Part shown: positions 7,450 to 21,743 of the stretch, piece after piece
Position numbering within the stretch: position 1 is the first letter of the stretch
Layout of the letters: each line of letters starts with the position of its first letter
Virus record (IMG/VR): IMGVR_UViG_3300023278_000861
Location: 1 to 21,909 of that record
From: a virus
DNA: 21,909 bases
Reading direction: 5' to 3' (one strand)
Notes under the pieces: generated by a model
Databases searched by the model: none
What the model saw: only the letters and a program-made list of their open reading frames with translations
What the model was told of the DNA's origin: nothing
Translations under genes and position numbers: made by a program

Positions 7450-8346
7450 ATGAGCAAGGGCGGCGGCACACAAACATCCACGACATCCATTGATCCGGAT
7501 GTCAAACAAGCGTACATGGGCAACTTGGGCTACGCCCAGCAGGTTGCCAACAACCTCGGCACCCAGCAGTTTGCTGGCTACAACCCGCAGTACACAGCCG
7601 GCGAGGCTCAGATCGAGCAAGCCGCGCAGGGTGGCGTGGGTATGCAGAATCTGGACACCGCAGCGGAACTTACCCGAGCGGGTGCCGGCTACCAGCCGAT
7701 GATGGTCGGTGCGGATCAGGCGGCCATTCAGTCGTATCTCAATCCGTACACGCAGGAGGTCATCAACACCGGCCTGAGTGATCTGGAGAAGGCTCGGCAG
7801 GCTGCCGTGCAGCAGACCGGCCAGCAGGCGATGCAGGCCAAGGCGTTTGGCGGTTCGCGTCAAGGCGTGGCCGAGGCTCTGACCAATCAGCAGTACGGCA
7901 CGCAAGCCGGCAACATGATTGCGAACTTGCGCAGTCAGGGCTACACGCAAGCCTTGAATGCTGCTCAGCAGGCCGCACTGGCCAACCAGTCCGCAGGTAT
8001 GCAGGGCGCTCAGTTCCGCATGGGCGCGGCCAGCCAGTTGGGTGGTTTGGGTCAGCAGCAGACTGCCGGCCAGTACGCTGCCGGCCAAGCCCTCATGGGT
8101 CTGGGCGGTGCCCGTCAGCAGTTCGCACAGCAGCAGCTTGACGCACAGCGCAATCTGAACTTGCAGCGTCTGAGCTTGATGCAGGGTGCCATCGGTCTGA
8201 ACCCTGCCAACTTGGGCGGGACGAGTTCAACGCCGACATACAGCAACCCAGCGGCTGGTGCCCTTGGTGGTGCGATGGCTGGCAATGCAATCTTTCCAGG
8301 CGGCCTTGGCGCAATCGGCGGCGGTTTGCTTGGTCTTTTCAGTTAA
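7450..8346 (+). CDS. Putative internal virion / DNA-ejection protein, Ala/Gln/Gly-rich
   Basis: ATG at 7450 with AAGGGG upstream; in-frame upstream starts lie inside the previous gene. The 298-aa protein is helical and Gln/Ala-rich, with the phage-typical sequence YLNPYTQEVINTGLSDLEKA, then AFGGSRQGVAEALTNQQYG, and a glycine-rich C-terminus (GGLGAIGGGLLGLFS) that could insert into a membrane. Proteins of this composition in blocks of three or four long genes are characteristic of internal virion or ejection proteins in podovirus-type phages. The function is inferred from composition and position. Confidence 0.75.
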   Translation: MSKGGGTQTSTTSIDPDVKQAYMGNLGYAQQVANNLGTQQFAGYNPQYTAGEAQIEQAAQGGVGMQNLDTAAELTRAGAGYQPMMVGADQAAIQSYLNPYTQEVINTGLSDLEKARQAAVQQTGQQAMQAKAFGGSRQGVAEALTNQQYGTQAGNMIANLRSQGYTQALNAAQQAALANQSAGMQGAQFRMGAASQLGGLGQQQTAGQYAAGQALMGLGGARQQFAQQQLDAQRNLNLQRLSLMQGAIGLNPANLGGTSSTPTYSNPAAGALGGAMAGNAIFPGGLGAIGGGLLGLFS

Positions 8347-16413: not shown

Positions 16414-16435
16414 ATAAACTTACAGGAGGATGATT

Positions 16436-16978
16436 ATGGAAACTTGGAAGGCAATTGATGATGTGCCAGGGTACGAGGTCAGCAGCCTTGGTGATGTGCG
16501 CAGTGTTGATCGGGTGAGGCTTTTACGCAATCGTTACGGGTCATACAACGAAAGACGATTTAAGGGAAAGCCAATCAAGCCCCACACATTCCCCAATGGA
16601 TATGTTGCCGTGGTCTTGGGTCGCGGAAATTGCAAGCTGGTGCATCGTCTTGTCGCTGCCGCTTTCATCGATGGCGACAAAGCATTGCAGGTCAATCACA
16701 AGAATGGGCAGCGCAACGACAACAGGGTTGAAAACCTTGAGTGGCTTTCGTGCTCAGACAACCACCGCCACAGCTACCAATCTCTGCAAAGAAAAACCCA
16801 CACATGGACAAATCAGGTTGATGTCGATGGGGTCTTGTTTCCAAGCCAGAATGCCGCTGCCCGACATCTGGGTGTGCATGGTGCAAGTGTCGCGTCAGCA
16901 ATCATCAAAGGCCATAAAGTTCGGGGTCACTCAGTCAAATTAATCAAAGGAGAAAGCAACCATGCACCAAAATCGTAA
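16436..16978 (+). CDS. HNH homing endonuclease with NUMOD4 domain
   Basis: ATG at 16436 chosen since AGGAGG at 16424-16429 is 6 nt away; the ATG at 16430 touches it. 180 aa with three parts: NUMOD4 (ETWKAIDDVPGYEVSSLGDV) at 2-21, HNH core at ~69-112 (LVHRLVAAAFID, VNHKNGQRNDNRVENLEW), and a C-terminal NUMOD1/IENR1-like DNA-binding helix-turn region (PSQNAAARHLGVHGASV). Such free-standing nucleases cut intron-less alleles or related phages and so spread. It overlaps the next gene by 17 nt and interrupts an otherwise compact replication operon. Confidence 0.9.
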   Translation: METWKAIDDVPGYEVSSLGDVRSVDRVRLLRNRYGSYNERRFKGKPIKPHTFPNGYVAVVLGRGNCKLVHRLVAAAFIDGDKALQVNHKNGQRNDNRVENLEWLSCSDNHRHSYQSLQRKTHTWTNQVDVDGVLFPSQNAAARHLGVHGASVASAIIKGHKVRGHSVKLIKGESNHAPKS

Positions 16979-18092: not shown

Positions 18093-18122
18093 ATGAAGTC
18101 AACCGCGAGATCAACGACATGA
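18093..18122 (+). CDS. Nine-codon leader ORF coupled to the primase-helicase start
   Basis: ATG at 18093 has AAGGAG (18078-18083) upstream, encodes only MKSTARSTT and ends in an ATGA overlap with the primase start at 18119, which has no good site of its own. Ribosome re-initiation at the junction would control primase levels. Functional status is inferred. Confidence 0.4.
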   Translation: MKSTARSTT

Positions 18123-20314
18123 GTATTTTACCCAAAGCAGACGCATCTGAAACATTCAGGGCGTCTCAGGCTGTTGCGACACGTCTCATCGAGCAGCACC
18201 CCGAAGCAGTGTTCTGCACGTTTGCAGTCACCGCCGACAAAAAGAAAATCCCATACAAGAAGTCAGGCCAGGGTGTAGCGCGTGACACTCCACCAGAGCA
18301 GCTTTACAACGCACAAGAGGTGCTGGCAATGACCACCGCGCCAGCCGGCGACTATCTGGGCATCGTGATGCAGTCGCCGGCCATGAGCCAAGGCGCGTAC
18401 CTCGTGTGCCTCGACGTGGACATGAAGCACTCCACAGCCCCGACAAACATTTCCATCCAGCGCATGGCCTCGTGGGTCAAGCAGCAGGATCAACTGACGG
18501 AGGTAAGCGTCTCCGGACGTGGCCGGCACGTCTTCCTGTTCGTGGCCGATGAAGACCTCGACAAGATCAAACCCAAGTACAAACTCGGCGGCGGCCAAGA
18601 GATCGAGGTGTTCGGGCTGCCGACATCCCCAGGCAAGTCTGTACTCTTGTCTGGCTCCAAGCTAACTGGCAAGCTATCTAACGAGATGCATGACAATCTA
18701 CTGTCCCTGCTGACCATGTGGGGCGTGATTGAGCAGGACAACTCCAACCAACCGGTCGAAGTGCCACGGTTGCTTAAGCCTGAGTACCAGCCCGTCACCT
18801 CATCGGCCACAGACGACTACTCCAAGGCCGCTGAGGCGCTCCAGTACATCAACCCAGATATTGACTACGACACATGGATTGACATTGGCCAAGCGCTGCA
18901 CGATGCATTCGGCGCCCAAGGCCACGGCCTTTGGTCAAGCTGGAGCGGCCAAGGCACAAAGTATGTCTCAGAGCAGGACATCAATACCCACTGGAAGTCA
19001 TTCAACCAGGGCAAGGGAGTCGCCATCGGCACGCTGTTCCACCACGCCAAGGAGGCCGGCTACAACCCACCATCCAAGGCCGCTGACCGCAAGTCGGCGG
19101 TCGAGGACTTCTCCACCTTCATCCAAGCGAGGCAGGCCACAAACCCAGAAGGGGTAGAGACGAACCCAAATCAGGTATCCAGTCCAGCCCCGTACTGGAA
19201 AGAACTCACCCTCGACCTGACCAAGCTGCACCCAGTCGAGTACCTGATTGACGGGTTCATGGCCCACAGCTTTTCCGTCACCGCCGGCCAGCCTGGGATA
19301 GGCAAGACCACGGCCATGGTGTCGGTCTGCCTTATCGTCGCCGGATTCCGCTTATCAGATTCCCCACTAAAGACCGAATCCCGCAGGAAGATTCTCTACG
19401 TCACCGAGGACGCCAACCAAGTCCGACAATCTCTCTATGCCTACGTCAAGTACTGGAATCTCAACTCAGAAGAAGTCGCCGAGTGGTTTATCGTCATTGA
19501 ATCAAAGCGCTCCAAGGTCCCAGAGATACTATTATTGGCCGAGAATGTGATTAATCACACTGTTAATAATGAGCGGCCTTTTCTTGTTATTGATACATCC
19601 AATGCGACCCTTGATATAGAAAATGAGAACGATAACTCTGAGGTCGGCAGCTTCATGGCCGCCATCAAGCAGACTATCTACACCCAGCTTTCCACCCCAA
19701 TTAAGATCATCGCCCACACGGCCAAGACGGCCACCACCAACGATGACGCAGCTCTGGCCCGTGGAGCCTCCGCGTTCACCGGAGACGCCACACTCACAGC
19801 CATCCTGTTCATGGATGAAGAAAAGAACAGGTTCATGCGGCTCGTCAAGACCCGCTACGAGCCCATAACCCGAGAGATCAGCCTTCAGACCCACATCCAC
19901 AACGAGGTGGTCATCACGCGCCACGGCACCCCTCAAGACATCCAGTGCATCACGGTCATCCCGTACCCGACAAGTGAAGCCAGCCGTAAGCAGGAAGCAG
20001 CCGCCCGAATTGAGGATAGCAAGTCCCTGCGCATGATGGACAAGTGCGACACGGCAGCAGCTTTCGTTCAATCCGTCATCAATGAGCACCCCGAAGGGGT
20101 CGTCCTCCGCCGCGGCTCCAACGCTCCAAAGGACTGTTTTGAGCATCCCAATGCGTACAAGCTAGACTGGGCCGAGGTCTATGCGGCGGTCCCAGGAAGC
20201 TCCAAGGGGGATGTAAAACGGGCAATCGGCATCTCCATTTTCAAGAGATTTGCCCCAAACACGGCCAATAATTCGTGGAACATTTTGTCCCAAGGGGGCG
20301 GCCATGAGGGCTGA
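18119..20314 (+). CDS. Primase-helicase: AEP primase, PriCT-2 and RepA-type ATPase
   Basis: 731 aa. Residues ~20-205: archaeo-eukaryotic primase-polymerase fold, with the metal DxD at D99/D101 (CLDVDMK), H137 in SGRGRHVFLF and acidic EIEVFG (~161-166). ~233-315: PriCT-2-like (YINPDIDYDTWIDIGQAL, WSSWSGQGTKY, THWKSF, LFHHAKEAGY). ~370-600: RecA-like ATPase with Walker A GQPGIGKTT (K396), RKILYVTEDA and Walker B FLVIDTSNA (D492). C-terminal ~620-731 has a helical region unlike the ATPase. It would prime and unwind DNA at the phage origin; the repeat cluster starts 17 nt after its stop. Confidence 0.9.
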   Translation: MSILPKADASETFRASQAVATRLIEQHPEAVFCTFAVTADKKKIPYKKSGQGVARDTPPEQLYNAQEVLAMTTAPAGDYLGIVMQSPAMSQGAYLVCLDVDMKHSTAPTNISIQRMASWVKQQDQLTEVSVSGRGRHVFLFVADEDLDKIKPKYKLGGGQEIEVFGLPTSPGKSVLLSGSKLTGKLSNEMHDNLLSLLTMWGVIEQDNSNQPVEVPRLLKPEYQPVTSSATDDYSKAAEALQYINPDIDYDTWIDIGQALHDAFGAQGHGLWSSWSGQGTKYVSEQDINTHWKSFNQGKGVAIGTLFHHAKEAGYNPPSKAADRKSAVEDFSTFIQARQATNPEGVETNPNQVSSPAPYWKELTLDLTKLHPVEYLIDGFMAHSFSVTAGQPGIGKTTAMVSVCLIVAGFRLSDSPLKTESRRKILYVTEDANQVRQSLYAYVKYWNLNSEEVAEWFIVIESKRSKVPEILLLAENVINHTVNNERPFLVIDTSNATLDIENENDNSEVGSFMAAIKQTIYTQLSTPIKIIAHTAKTATTNDDAALARGASAFTGDATLTAILFMDEEKNRFMRLVKTRYEPITREISLQTHIHNEVVITRHGTPQDIQCITVIPYPTSEASRKQEAAARIEDSKSLRMMDKCDTAAAFVQSVINEHPEGVVLRRGSNAPKDCFEHPNAYKLDWAEVYAAVPGSSKGDVKRAIGISIFKRFAPNTANNSWNILSQGGGHEG

Positions 20315-20537
20315 AATGATGTCTCCAGCCAAGTCGAGGATACGGAGATACCTCGAAGATACCTCGGAGATACGTATCCCCGACAAAGTGATGCGCTTGG
20401 GGATAACCCTGTGGAGTTATCCACAGGTTATCCACAGCCTAATCACCGATTTTCTGGGCTTGACAAAAGTCGAAGATACCGGAGATTTTTCCCATGGGGG
20501 GTATCTTCGACTTGGTATCCTCGACTTGTGGGCTTGA
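20304..20537 (+). CDS. Doubtful 77-aa ORF across the repeat cluster
   Basis: ATG at 20304 overlaps the primase stop by 11 nt and has AAGGGGG upstream, so the start looks real. The sequence, MRAEMMSPAKSRIRRYLEDT to GILDLWA, follows the DNA repeats and shows no domain. It may be translated but the DNA seems selected for its repeats. Treat as low confidence. Confidence 0.3.
   Translation: MRAEMMSPAKSRIRRYLEDTSEIRIPDKVMRLGITLWSYPQVIHSLITDFLGLTKVEDTGDFSHGGYLRLGILDLWA
20331..20383 (+). repeat. Tandem ~10-bp iterons, GATACC family
   Basis: TCGAGGATAC (20334), GGAGATACC (20344), TCGAAGATACC (20353) and TCGGAGATAC (20364) follow each other with periods of 10, 9 and 11 bp, then GTATCCCCGA (20374) in reverse orientation. 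The spacing near one helical turn suits cooperative protein binding. Confidence 0.7.
20401..20433. repeat. Imperfect palindrome containing the first DnaA box pair
   Basis: GGATAACC (20401-20408) pairs with GGTTATCC (20426-20433), and CCTGTGG (20408-20414) with CCACAGG (20421-20427), giving a bulged stem of about 13 bp across two TTATCCACA boxes. May fold as a cruciform or bind a dimer. Confidence 0.6.
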
Positions 20538-20878
20538 CAGTGAAAAGTTATCCACAGGCTGATGGCTGGTCCAACGAGACCCGCGTTTTGTGCAAAAACT
20601 GCGGAAATCTGGAGTCGAGGATACAGCGCTGGAATTTCACGGCAGCCGACTTTGAGAAGATGAGGAGGCTCAACGAAAAGCCTGCACAGTGGATGTTTCA
20701 CGGAGCCGTTACAAAGAACGGCTGGGTCAGGGTTGAGTTCAGTCAGGACTTTTGTACAAAGACGGATTTGCACTGCATTCCGGACGCAGTGCTGCATCAC
20801 TGCCACCTGTTCGTGGATCGGGACGCCGCAACGCCTGCGGAGTCCGTAGAATCGACGCCATGGTGGGAATTGACTTAA
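20411..20878 (+). CDS. Hypothetical protein, possible zinc-binding, start uncertain
   Basis: Open from GTG at 20411 (GGGGAT upstream); GTG or TTG starts near 20528-20540 would omit the repeats. The C-terminal ~100 residues look protein-like: RVLCKNCGNLESRIQRWNF with a CxxC, GAVTKNGWVRVEFSQDF, and a second Cys/His set (LHCIPDAVLHHCHLF), together suggesting a zinc site. It lies between the primase-helicase and VRR-NUC genes and overlaps the latter by 19 nt. No family recognised. The N-terminal part is probably an artefact of the repeat DNA. Confidence 0.45.
   Translation: MELSTGYPQPNHRFSGLDKSRRYRRFFPWGVSSTWYPRLVGLTVKSYPQADGWSNETRVLCKNCGNLESRIQRWNFTAADFEKMRRLNEKPAQWMFHGAVTKNGWVRVEFSQDFCTKTDLHCIPDAVLHHCHLFVDRDAATPAESVESTPWWELT
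20467..20527. repeat. 14-bp perfect inverted repeat followed by tandem 14-mer
   Basis: AAGTCGAAGATACC (20467-20480) and GGTATCTTCGACTT (20500-20513) are exact reverse complements with a 19-nt spacer. The right arm is directly repeated, with one mismatch, at 20514-20527 (GGTATCCTCGACTT). The unit is the same as the iterons to the left. Confidence 0.8.
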
Positions 20879-21228
20879 AGCGCAAAAGGAAAAGCATTGA
20901 GCATACCGAGCAGGTGCGGCTGGTGCAGCGGGTCAGGGCGTTTTATCCGGACGTGCTGATTGCGGCCATACCGAATGGGGGCGACAGAACGGCCTCAGAG
21001 CGCGTTAGGCTGCATGGTGAGGGGGTACTGGCTGGGATGCCTGATCTGTGCGTCCTAAAGCGATCCAAGGGCTTTGGCGGGTTGTTCGTGGAGATGAAGA
21101 CCAAGGTCGGGGTCGTCAGCAAGGAACAGAATTGCATTGCAAAGCAATTAAACGACGAGGGCTACCTGTGCGTCATCGCACGGTCAGCCGATGAGGGGTT
21201 CAAAATAATTGAGGAGTACTTGGGATGA
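20860..21228 (+). CDS. VRR-NUC domain nuclease
   Basis: ATG at 20860 gives 122 aa beginning MVGIDLKRKRKSIEHTEQVR; an earlier in-frame start would overlap the previous gene strongly. VRR-NUC motifs: E17-Q18, IPNGG (37-41), AGMPDL (D62), FVEMKT (E78, K80), Q90, then VIARSADEGFKIIEEYL. The family is a PD-(D/E)XK nuclease of structure-specific type, common in phages with DUF2800 and SNF2 genes. Its stop overlaps the terminase small subunit start by ATGA. Confidence 0.9.
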   Translation: MVGIDLKRKRKSIEHTEQVRLVQRVRAFYPDVLIAAIPNGGDRTASERVRLHGEGVLAGMPDLCVLKRSKGFGGLFVEMKTKVGVVSKEQNCIAKQLNDEGYLCVIARSADEGFKIIEEYLG

Positions 21229-21743
21229 GCCGAGACACATTGGCCGAGATGGCAGACCAGAGCGCAGCCAATGTCGCTGCAGCGCACGTCAAGAAGGCCG
21301 AGATGAGTTCGGCGAATAAGGCTATTCACGCATTCGGTGGGGAAGCTGCCGTGATCGAATCAGTTGCATCGGGCTGCACCATCTCAGCACTGTGCAAGGG
21401 ATTGGGTATCGCGGTCACTACGTTCGACCGATGGGTCGATAGGGGCGGAGAGGCACGCCGCTCGGCATATGCGCAGGCGCGCACGCGAGCCGCACAGAGT
21501 TTAGCAGAGCAGACCATCGACATCGCTGACGCTGCGACCGTACAGGAGGTGCAGCTAGCCAAGCTGCGCAGCGATAACCGCTGGAGGATGGCCGCCAAGC
21601 TCAATCCCGAAACCTATGGCGACAAGCAGCAGCCGCTCATCAGCATCGACCTGGGCTCGATGGCGCTCGATGCACTGCGTCACCGTGTAATCGATGTCAT
21701 GCCCGTAAACGGGATTGACAGCGACCCAATTGATGAGGGTTAA
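21225..21743 (+). CDS. Terminase small subunit
   Basis: 172 aa, ATGA overlap at the start. Central HTH (IESVASGCTISALCKGLGIA, TTFDRWVDRG) binds the packaging site in this family. It is followed by the signature AQSLAEQTIDIAD and LAKLRSDNRWRMAAKLNPET plus YGDKQ, which I know from phage small terminase subunits. The C-terminus could contact the large subunit, which is not in the window; the gene for it presumably lies to the right. Expected to start headful or cos packaging. Confidence 0.82.
   Translation: MSRDTLAEMADQSAANVAAAHVKKAEMSSANKAIHAFGGEAAVIESVASGCTISALCKGLGIAVTTFDRWVDRGGEARRSAYAQARTRAAQSLAEQTIDIADAATVQEVQLAKLRSDNRWRMAAKLNPETYGDKQQPLISIDLGSMALDALRHRVIDVMPVNGIDSDPIDEG

Follow-up and report, generated by a model that had tools for sequence, protein, structure and literature searches.

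Comparison with related phages indicates that DNA copying in a freshwater phage very probably starts directly behind its repA gene. The sequence analyzed, called the window from here on, is a 21.9-kb phage fragment from IMG/VR (IMGVR_UViG_3300023278_000861). The explanation that we favor as a whole, and with good confidence, is that block 20315–20626 is the theta-type replication origin of a ~36-kb phage, with RepA as the reader of its iterons, help from host DnaA, and a bulged hairpin serving for priming or helicase loading. An earlier note on this DNA had proposed a replication origin here and had set out beforehand checks of skew, relatives, and coding that could refute it; these checks support the proposal. 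The features of the block and its surroundings are listed below, with window coordinates and strand.

18119–20314 (+): repA, 731 aa; NrS-1-like PrimPol, PriCT-2, AAA_25 (RecA-like) helicase, putative C-terminal winged helix
20084–20290 (+): putative RepA C-terminal winged-helix domain, residues ~656–724, from AlphaFold2 models
20207–20251 (+): putative RepA recognition helix, residues 697–711; codon of residue 703 at 20225–20227
20334–20383: left iteron array with 11-bp period, 20334–20344, 20342–20352, 20353–20363, and 20364–20374 (+), 20373–20383 (−)
20398–20406 (−): degenerate DnaA box TTATCCCCA, not retained in more than half of the near relatives
20401–20433 (no strand): bulged hairpin, GGATAA, bulged C, CCTGTGGA, loop GTTA, TCCACAGG, TTATCC
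20417–20425 (+): DnaA box 1, exact in the window and in 19/28 near relatives
20428–20436 (+): DnaA box 2, exact, at the 3′ foot of the hairpin; exact in 26/28 near relatives
20467–20513 (no strand): inverted iteron pair, 14-bp perfect arms 20467–20480 and 20500–20513, 19-nt loop with T5
20514–20527 (−): third inverted iteron GGTATCCTCGACTT
20540–20878 (+): small CxxC (zinc-ribbon-like) gene, probable GTG start, 111–112 aa open in all near relatives
20548–20556 (+): DnaA box 3, exact, in the first codons of the CxxC gene; exact in 27/28 near relatives
20615–20625 (+): iteron inside the CxxC coding sequence, coding for ESRIQ just past the second cysteine of the CxxC motif
20860–21228 (+): VRR-NUC nuclease gene (Pfam VRR_NUC 2.4e-6; annotation of MW202879)
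21225–21743 (+): terminase small subunit gene (terS), Sf6-like (Pfam 1.7e-18)

Genomic setting of the block

At most tens of bases separate the start of the block from the repA stop codon, both in the window and in its relatives. GC skew in the window turns from negative to positive at ~20.3–20.5 kb, at the block, and the global minimum of the detrended cumulative GC skew falls between −220 and +57 b relative to the repA stop in all 16 near-complete relatives, which cover all clades. The skew change anticipated by the earlier note is thus present. Genes run in the same direction on both sides, and therefore gene strand does not explain the minimum. In 15 of the 16 genomes, no more than 15 of 1000 block permutations reached the observed skew amplitude; in the remaining one (G019), the amplitude was not significant (221 of 1000). 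The measure treats contigs as circular, and most are without a terminal repeat, which we count against our explanation.

The core of the block is non-coding. Among 28 near relatives, no third-position signal is seen between ~20310 and 20549, and the reading frame over the repeats is broken at many places. A small ORF at 20304–20537, annotated in MW202879, was rejected as a gene, as its length varies from 27 to 191 aa among relatives with no codon-position signal; no conserved protein across 20315–20540 accounts for the sequence. The coding signal resumes at ~20550 in the frame of the next gene, which is open for 111–112 codons in the near relatives. The cluster had been placed in less than 300 bp after a RepA-type gene. 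It does lie directly behind repA and spans ~300 b, but DnaA box 3 and the last iteron are inside the next gene's frame, so the origin would extend into the first codons of that gene. At this iteron, 15 bases are unchanged throughout the near clade except in three phages that have GGGAC both in the left array and here. At the same spot in the CxxC gene, most third-clade genomes checked carry the phage's own iteron (TAAAGCGGTAG or TAATGCGGAA). The CxxC-gene residues encoded over the iteron differ between clades, fitting the iteron letters.

Upstream, a NUMOD4/HNH endonuclease gene (16430–16978) lies between an SNF2-type helicase gene and a DUF2800 exonuclease gene and is possibly a mobile insertion. 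A search of genome contigs for repA returned a sole match, a partial, 35%-identical relative in Methylophilales bacterium LSUCC0135. Methylophilales were considered as the host of the window phage by way of an integrated copy, and this was rejected, as neither the match nor the hairpins and tandem repeats behind it fix the host. TerL similarity pointed to mixed hosts. Behind the repA relative on the Methylophilales contig (L107:7396–7530) are two inverted repeats, both perfect, and tandem ATTGGAATNN units of ~10 bp.

Iterons, DnaA boxes, and a bulged hairpin

The earlier note had counted about ten full or partial copies of a repeat unit in both orientations, and nine 11-mers matching TCGRRGATACC with 0–1 mismatch bear this out. 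They start at 20334, 20342, 20353, 20364, 20470, and 20615 on the + strand and at 20373, 20500, and 20514 on the − strand, and none is found elsewhere in the 21.9-kb window at this threshold. Simulated windows contain at most three matches per 320 b, even allowing two mismatches. The 14-bp perfect inverted repeat claimed for this region is the inverted iteron pair, with the arms listed above. One near relative (L029) has one additional whole 11-bp unit in its left array.

The exact DnaA box TTATCCACA occurs three times in the window, at 20417, 20428, and 20548 on the + strand, all in the block and nowhere else; the three boxes themselves had been noticed before. Simulating the window 2000 times with a first-order Markov model gave not a single 300-b stretch with three exact boxes and one with two. 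Neither the 11-mer cluster nor the DnaA-box cluster is expected by chance. As in theta plasmids, direct repeats at helical-turn spacing (11-bp tandem units) and three exact DnaA boxes lie near an initiator gene.

Recruitment of host DnaA by these boxes is plausible from the sequence. The claim that the origin is DnaA dependent holds in part: both the near and the third clade retain boxes here, but the block of the far clade has none, which counts against our explanation; that clade instead carries a cluster ~1.5 kb downstream. Every third-clade block long enough to score has DnaA boxes, two or three in number, with the outer pair ~131 b apart. Located behind terS, 1.3–1.5 kb from repA, this second cluster is present in the far clade and in five of seven third-clade genomes checked, and is absent from the near clade. 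It consists of a + and a − box 56 b apart, with a third box between them in several genomes (L038:7592–7656, L042 ~7574–7630, L046 ~7604; also G016–G020). On a further contig (G013:7436–7546, the contig of L053), a stretch of 110 b located ~5.8 kb downstream of repA contains five exact DnaA boxes.

The imperfect palindrome reported earlier is actually a bulged hairpin at 20401–20433, in which stems of 6 bp and 8 bp are separated by a 1-nt bulge on the left and closed by a 4-nt loop. Near and far clades share this geometry at a matching position, with all 14 pairs in 35 of 37 sequences and 13 in L074; it is found neither in L053 nor in the third clade, which has a related bulged stem of other proportions with a DnaA box at its 3′ foot. 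The hairpin exists in 11 distinct versions, in which 153 of 154 cells are Watson–Crick and 13 of the 14 pairs have changed on both sides. The count of pairs used ungapped 33-mers, each being the best-pairing stretch of its genome, and because of this choice the comparison with 20,000 shuffles (mean 84 paired cells, best 104, versus 153 observed) is somewhat generous. The choice of 33-mers does not, however, account for pairs that change on both sides at one fixed place. In L036, a two-sided change keeps the stem and breaks DnaA box 2; therefore, conservation is tighter for the shape of the hairpin than for the box. Retention of the one-base asymmetry favors folding of a single strand over a simple palindromic binding site. 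Folded as single-stranded DNA, 20318–20540 reaches −50.1 kcal/mol (z = −7.1 versus shuffles). A search of Rfam gave no match for the block at E ≤ 1. The block contains no strongly AT-rich unwinding element; its richest 30-b stretch is 63% AT, at the ~95th–96th percentile of the window, and we count this against our explanation.

The relatives fall into three clades that share a common plan of tandem 8–11-bp iterons, inverted copies, and a hairpin, with different letters. Near relatives have a RepA that is ~80–87% identical (matched part), a nearly constant block length, and left arrays of the GATACC, GGGACC, or GCGCGACC type. RepA of the far clade is ~46–49% identical, and its repeats are GAAGGGAC and CGACCGGAC. 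In the third clade (RepA ~50–52% identical), the iterons are TAAASCGGTAG and CTAATRCGGAA, with tandem 11-mers from the stop codon on, followed by an inverted copy and the hairpin. Repeats thus persist in the relatives that keep the flanking genes, though their letters change, which is what the check on relatives had looked for.

RepA as the probable reader of the iterons

RepA fuses primase and helicase domains in a single 731-aa protein. Pfam identifies PriCT_2 (1.6e-20) and AAA_25 (1.3e-16), and the N-terminus of the RepA model matches NrS-1 PrimPol as the closest solved structure (E 1e-7). The helicase part is assigned to AAA_25 by Pfam; matches to RecA/KaiC/DMC1-like folds are weak, and the Pfam search gave no match to the SF3 helicase family in RepA. 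The AlphaFold2 models predict a putative winged helix at the C-terminus, with residue 703 in the helix preceding the last strand. VIA structure comparison of this domain gave mostly winged helices among the better rows (Z 4–5, maximum Z 5.4), Foldseek with the domain alone gave nothing significant (E ≥ 1), and a sequence search against solved structures gave no match; we count the weakness of the single structural matches against our explanation.

Among 28 near RepA proteins, residue 703 splits the GATACC phages (I, 19) from the GNGACC phages (V, 9) with no error. It is the only perfect column of 206 informative ones, and the columns ranking next all map to the C-terminal part of RepA. On a tree of RepA residues 1–600, residue 703 and iteron type each need about eight changes. 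L027 and L030 have near-identical RepA C-termini, yet they differ in both residue 703 and iteron type. Base by base, the strongest association is restricted to 20113–20251 and the iterons, and it is at background level in the rest of repA and in terS. The other clades show similar pairings. In the far clade, GAAGGGAC goes with DVKKAV and CGACCGGAC with DTRKAI, with one exception (L038, with EIRRAV). Third-clade helices of the QSYxRRAV type (24 genomes) and those with GYIRKHIG (18 genomes) are each paired with their own iteron family without exception. Against this, the middle iteron pair of the V703 phages is mostly still GATACC.

This tracking, together with the modeled winged helix, suggests that RepA itself probably reads the iterons, and its C-terminal winged helix probably binds them directly, as in SaPI Rep and P4 alpha. 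Since the RepA C-terminus adjoins the iterons, the two may have been inherited jointly in a single recombination block, which could account for some of the association. It is improbable, in our judgment, that the origin is real while another protein reads the iterons and RepA is tied to them by physical linkage only. Linkage is indeed tight, with ~110 b between the residue-703 codon and the first iteron, and the tree indicates much recombination among these phages. However, codons closer to the iterons than 703 (e.g., residue 725) track less well, the other small DNA-binding genes in MW202879 are kilobases away, and the switch recurs about eight times, including in pairs with near-identical C-termini, and also in other clades, with new iteron families. 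Because the switch has happened repeatedly and in many backgrounds, direct reading by RepA explains the pattern better.

Under direct reading by RepA, the origin may work as follows. RepA, made from the gene just upstream, would bind the 11-bp iterons through its own C-terminal winged helix, assemble on the iterons that flank the central hairpin, and load its RecA-like helicase ring. Host DnaA at the two or three boxes beside or inside the hairpin may aid opening. The bulged hairpin, whose structure is conserved, would extrude as single-stranded DNA and offer a PrimPol priming or loading site, like the ssi sites of RSF1010.

Alternative readings and known systems

It is unlikely, though worth serious consideration, that the hairpin instead serves DnaA rather than PrimPol, as a loading site for the host helicase. 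R6K offers a model for such loading in its DnaA-dependent A-site hairpin, and two of the clades here (near and third) have a DnaA box across the 3′ foot of their hairpin. However, the far clade keeps the hairpin geometry without any DnaA box in the block, the change in L036 alters both hairpin sides and breaks box 2, and RepA has a helicase domain of its own.

Two readings would move the origin elsewhere or give the block another role. We consider it very unlikely that the iterons are operators, bound by RepA or another phage regulator, for transcription of the repA operon, with the hairpin as an mRNA element. Because the block lies within a run of same-strand genes, it is probably transcribed; covarying hairpins are typical of RNA, and iteron replicons often unite operator and origin roles. 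However, the iterons are downstream of repA rather than upstream, the block has no promoter- or terminator-like site and no Rfam family, and the reading leaves the DnaA boxes without a place and sits poorly with a skew minimum at the block in 16/16 genomes. Still less probable, to the point of being nearly negligible, is a role of the block in packaging, as the pac/cos site for the Sf6-like terminase. Sites of the pac type are often in or near terS, which starts 600 b downstream of the block, but the iteron letters track the RepA C-terminus with the association at background across terS, and DnaA boxes and a skew minimum are features of origins.

The origin that we favor is of a known kind, that of a self-loading primase-helicase; new here are a RecA-like helicase in place of SF3, the DnaA boxes, and the covarying bulged hairpin. 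Searches of the open-access literature found no report of this origin. SaPI Rep and SCCmec Cch2 have helicases of SF3/AAA+-type families. At the SaPI ori and the putative SCCmec ori, a self-loading helicase uses its C-terminal domain to read short iterons directly downstream of its own gene, and SaPI5 Rep holds primase and helicase domains in one protein (PMC7581432). Like these, the window has its origin repeats directly downstream of the initiator-helicase gene. Unlike the SaPI/P4 type, with its SF3 or D5 AAA+ helicase, RepA has the RecA-like AAA_25, and unlike SaPI and SCCmec, the window has additional DnaA boxes and a covarying bulged hairpin. P4 alpha joins primase, helicase, and an origin-repeat-binding winged helix in one protein; its primase is of the Toprim type, and no DnaA boxes or conserved bulged hairpin are described there (PMC4234260).

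The crenarchaeal plasmid pRN1 (ORF904) and phage BIP-1/BPP-1 have a PrimPol, a helicase, and a C-terminal winged helix in one protein, with a stem-loop downstream of the gene that is conserved in structure rather than sequence; in pRN1, the stem-loop is ~100 nt long and essential, and no specific binding was seen in vitro (PMC4234260). The window resembles pRN1 in its PrimPol, its winged helix (by model), and a stem-loop behind the gene that is conserved in structure (13/14 pairs) and variable in sequence. However, pRN1 has an SF3 helicase and no iterons, whereas the window has AAA_25, iterons, DnaA boxes, and a short bulged hairpin. NrS-1 encodes a phage PrimPol-helicase that starts at a specific template sequence (PMC7102993). 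It provides the nearest solved structure to the RepA N-terminal domain but differs in having an SF3-like helicase, two copies of an 8-nt start sequence, and no iterons.

RSF1010 oriV uses RepC iterons, the RepA helicase, the RepB′ primase, and ssiA/ssiB hairpins (PMC4434180, PMC4234260), priming at the ssi hairpins (PMC4434180). Iterons with short hairpins, a hexameric RepA helicase, and an archaeo-eukaryotic primase form a similar replication kit, but RSF1010 spreads it over three proteins with a separate iteron binder, whereas the window has one fused protein and putative hairpin priming. Theta plasmids of the Rep_3/pi/RepA class differ in that their initiator is without its own helicase, whereas RepA here has PriCT_2 and AAA_25. 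Since the defining features of each named family are not all present, we do not assign the block to any of them; the window unites elements of the SaPI/P4, pRN1/BIP-1, and RSF1010 schemes with a RecA-like helicase.

A more specific proposal, which we put forward tentatively and at somewhat below even chances, is that one protein with a PrimPol and a RecA-type helicase recognizes the iterons and also initiates synthesis, at a bulged DNA hairpin selected for shape and not sequence. Iteron specificity would switch repeatedly, the main contrast running through one I/V change in the recognition helix, to give a natural series of orthogonal origins.

To our knowledge, the origins of most environmental phages have not been described. 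Here, comparison alone narrows the origin to ~300 b and names its likely reader and a candidate specificity residue, and the family offers natural iteron/reader pairs suited to swapping. The far clade, with its hairpin and no DnaA boxes in the block, bears on whether hairpin function and DnaA help are separable. Such an origin would link the SaPI/P4 scheme, in which the reader is fused to the helicase, with the RSF1010 scheme of a RecA-like helicase, an archaeo-eukaryotic primase, and hairpins.
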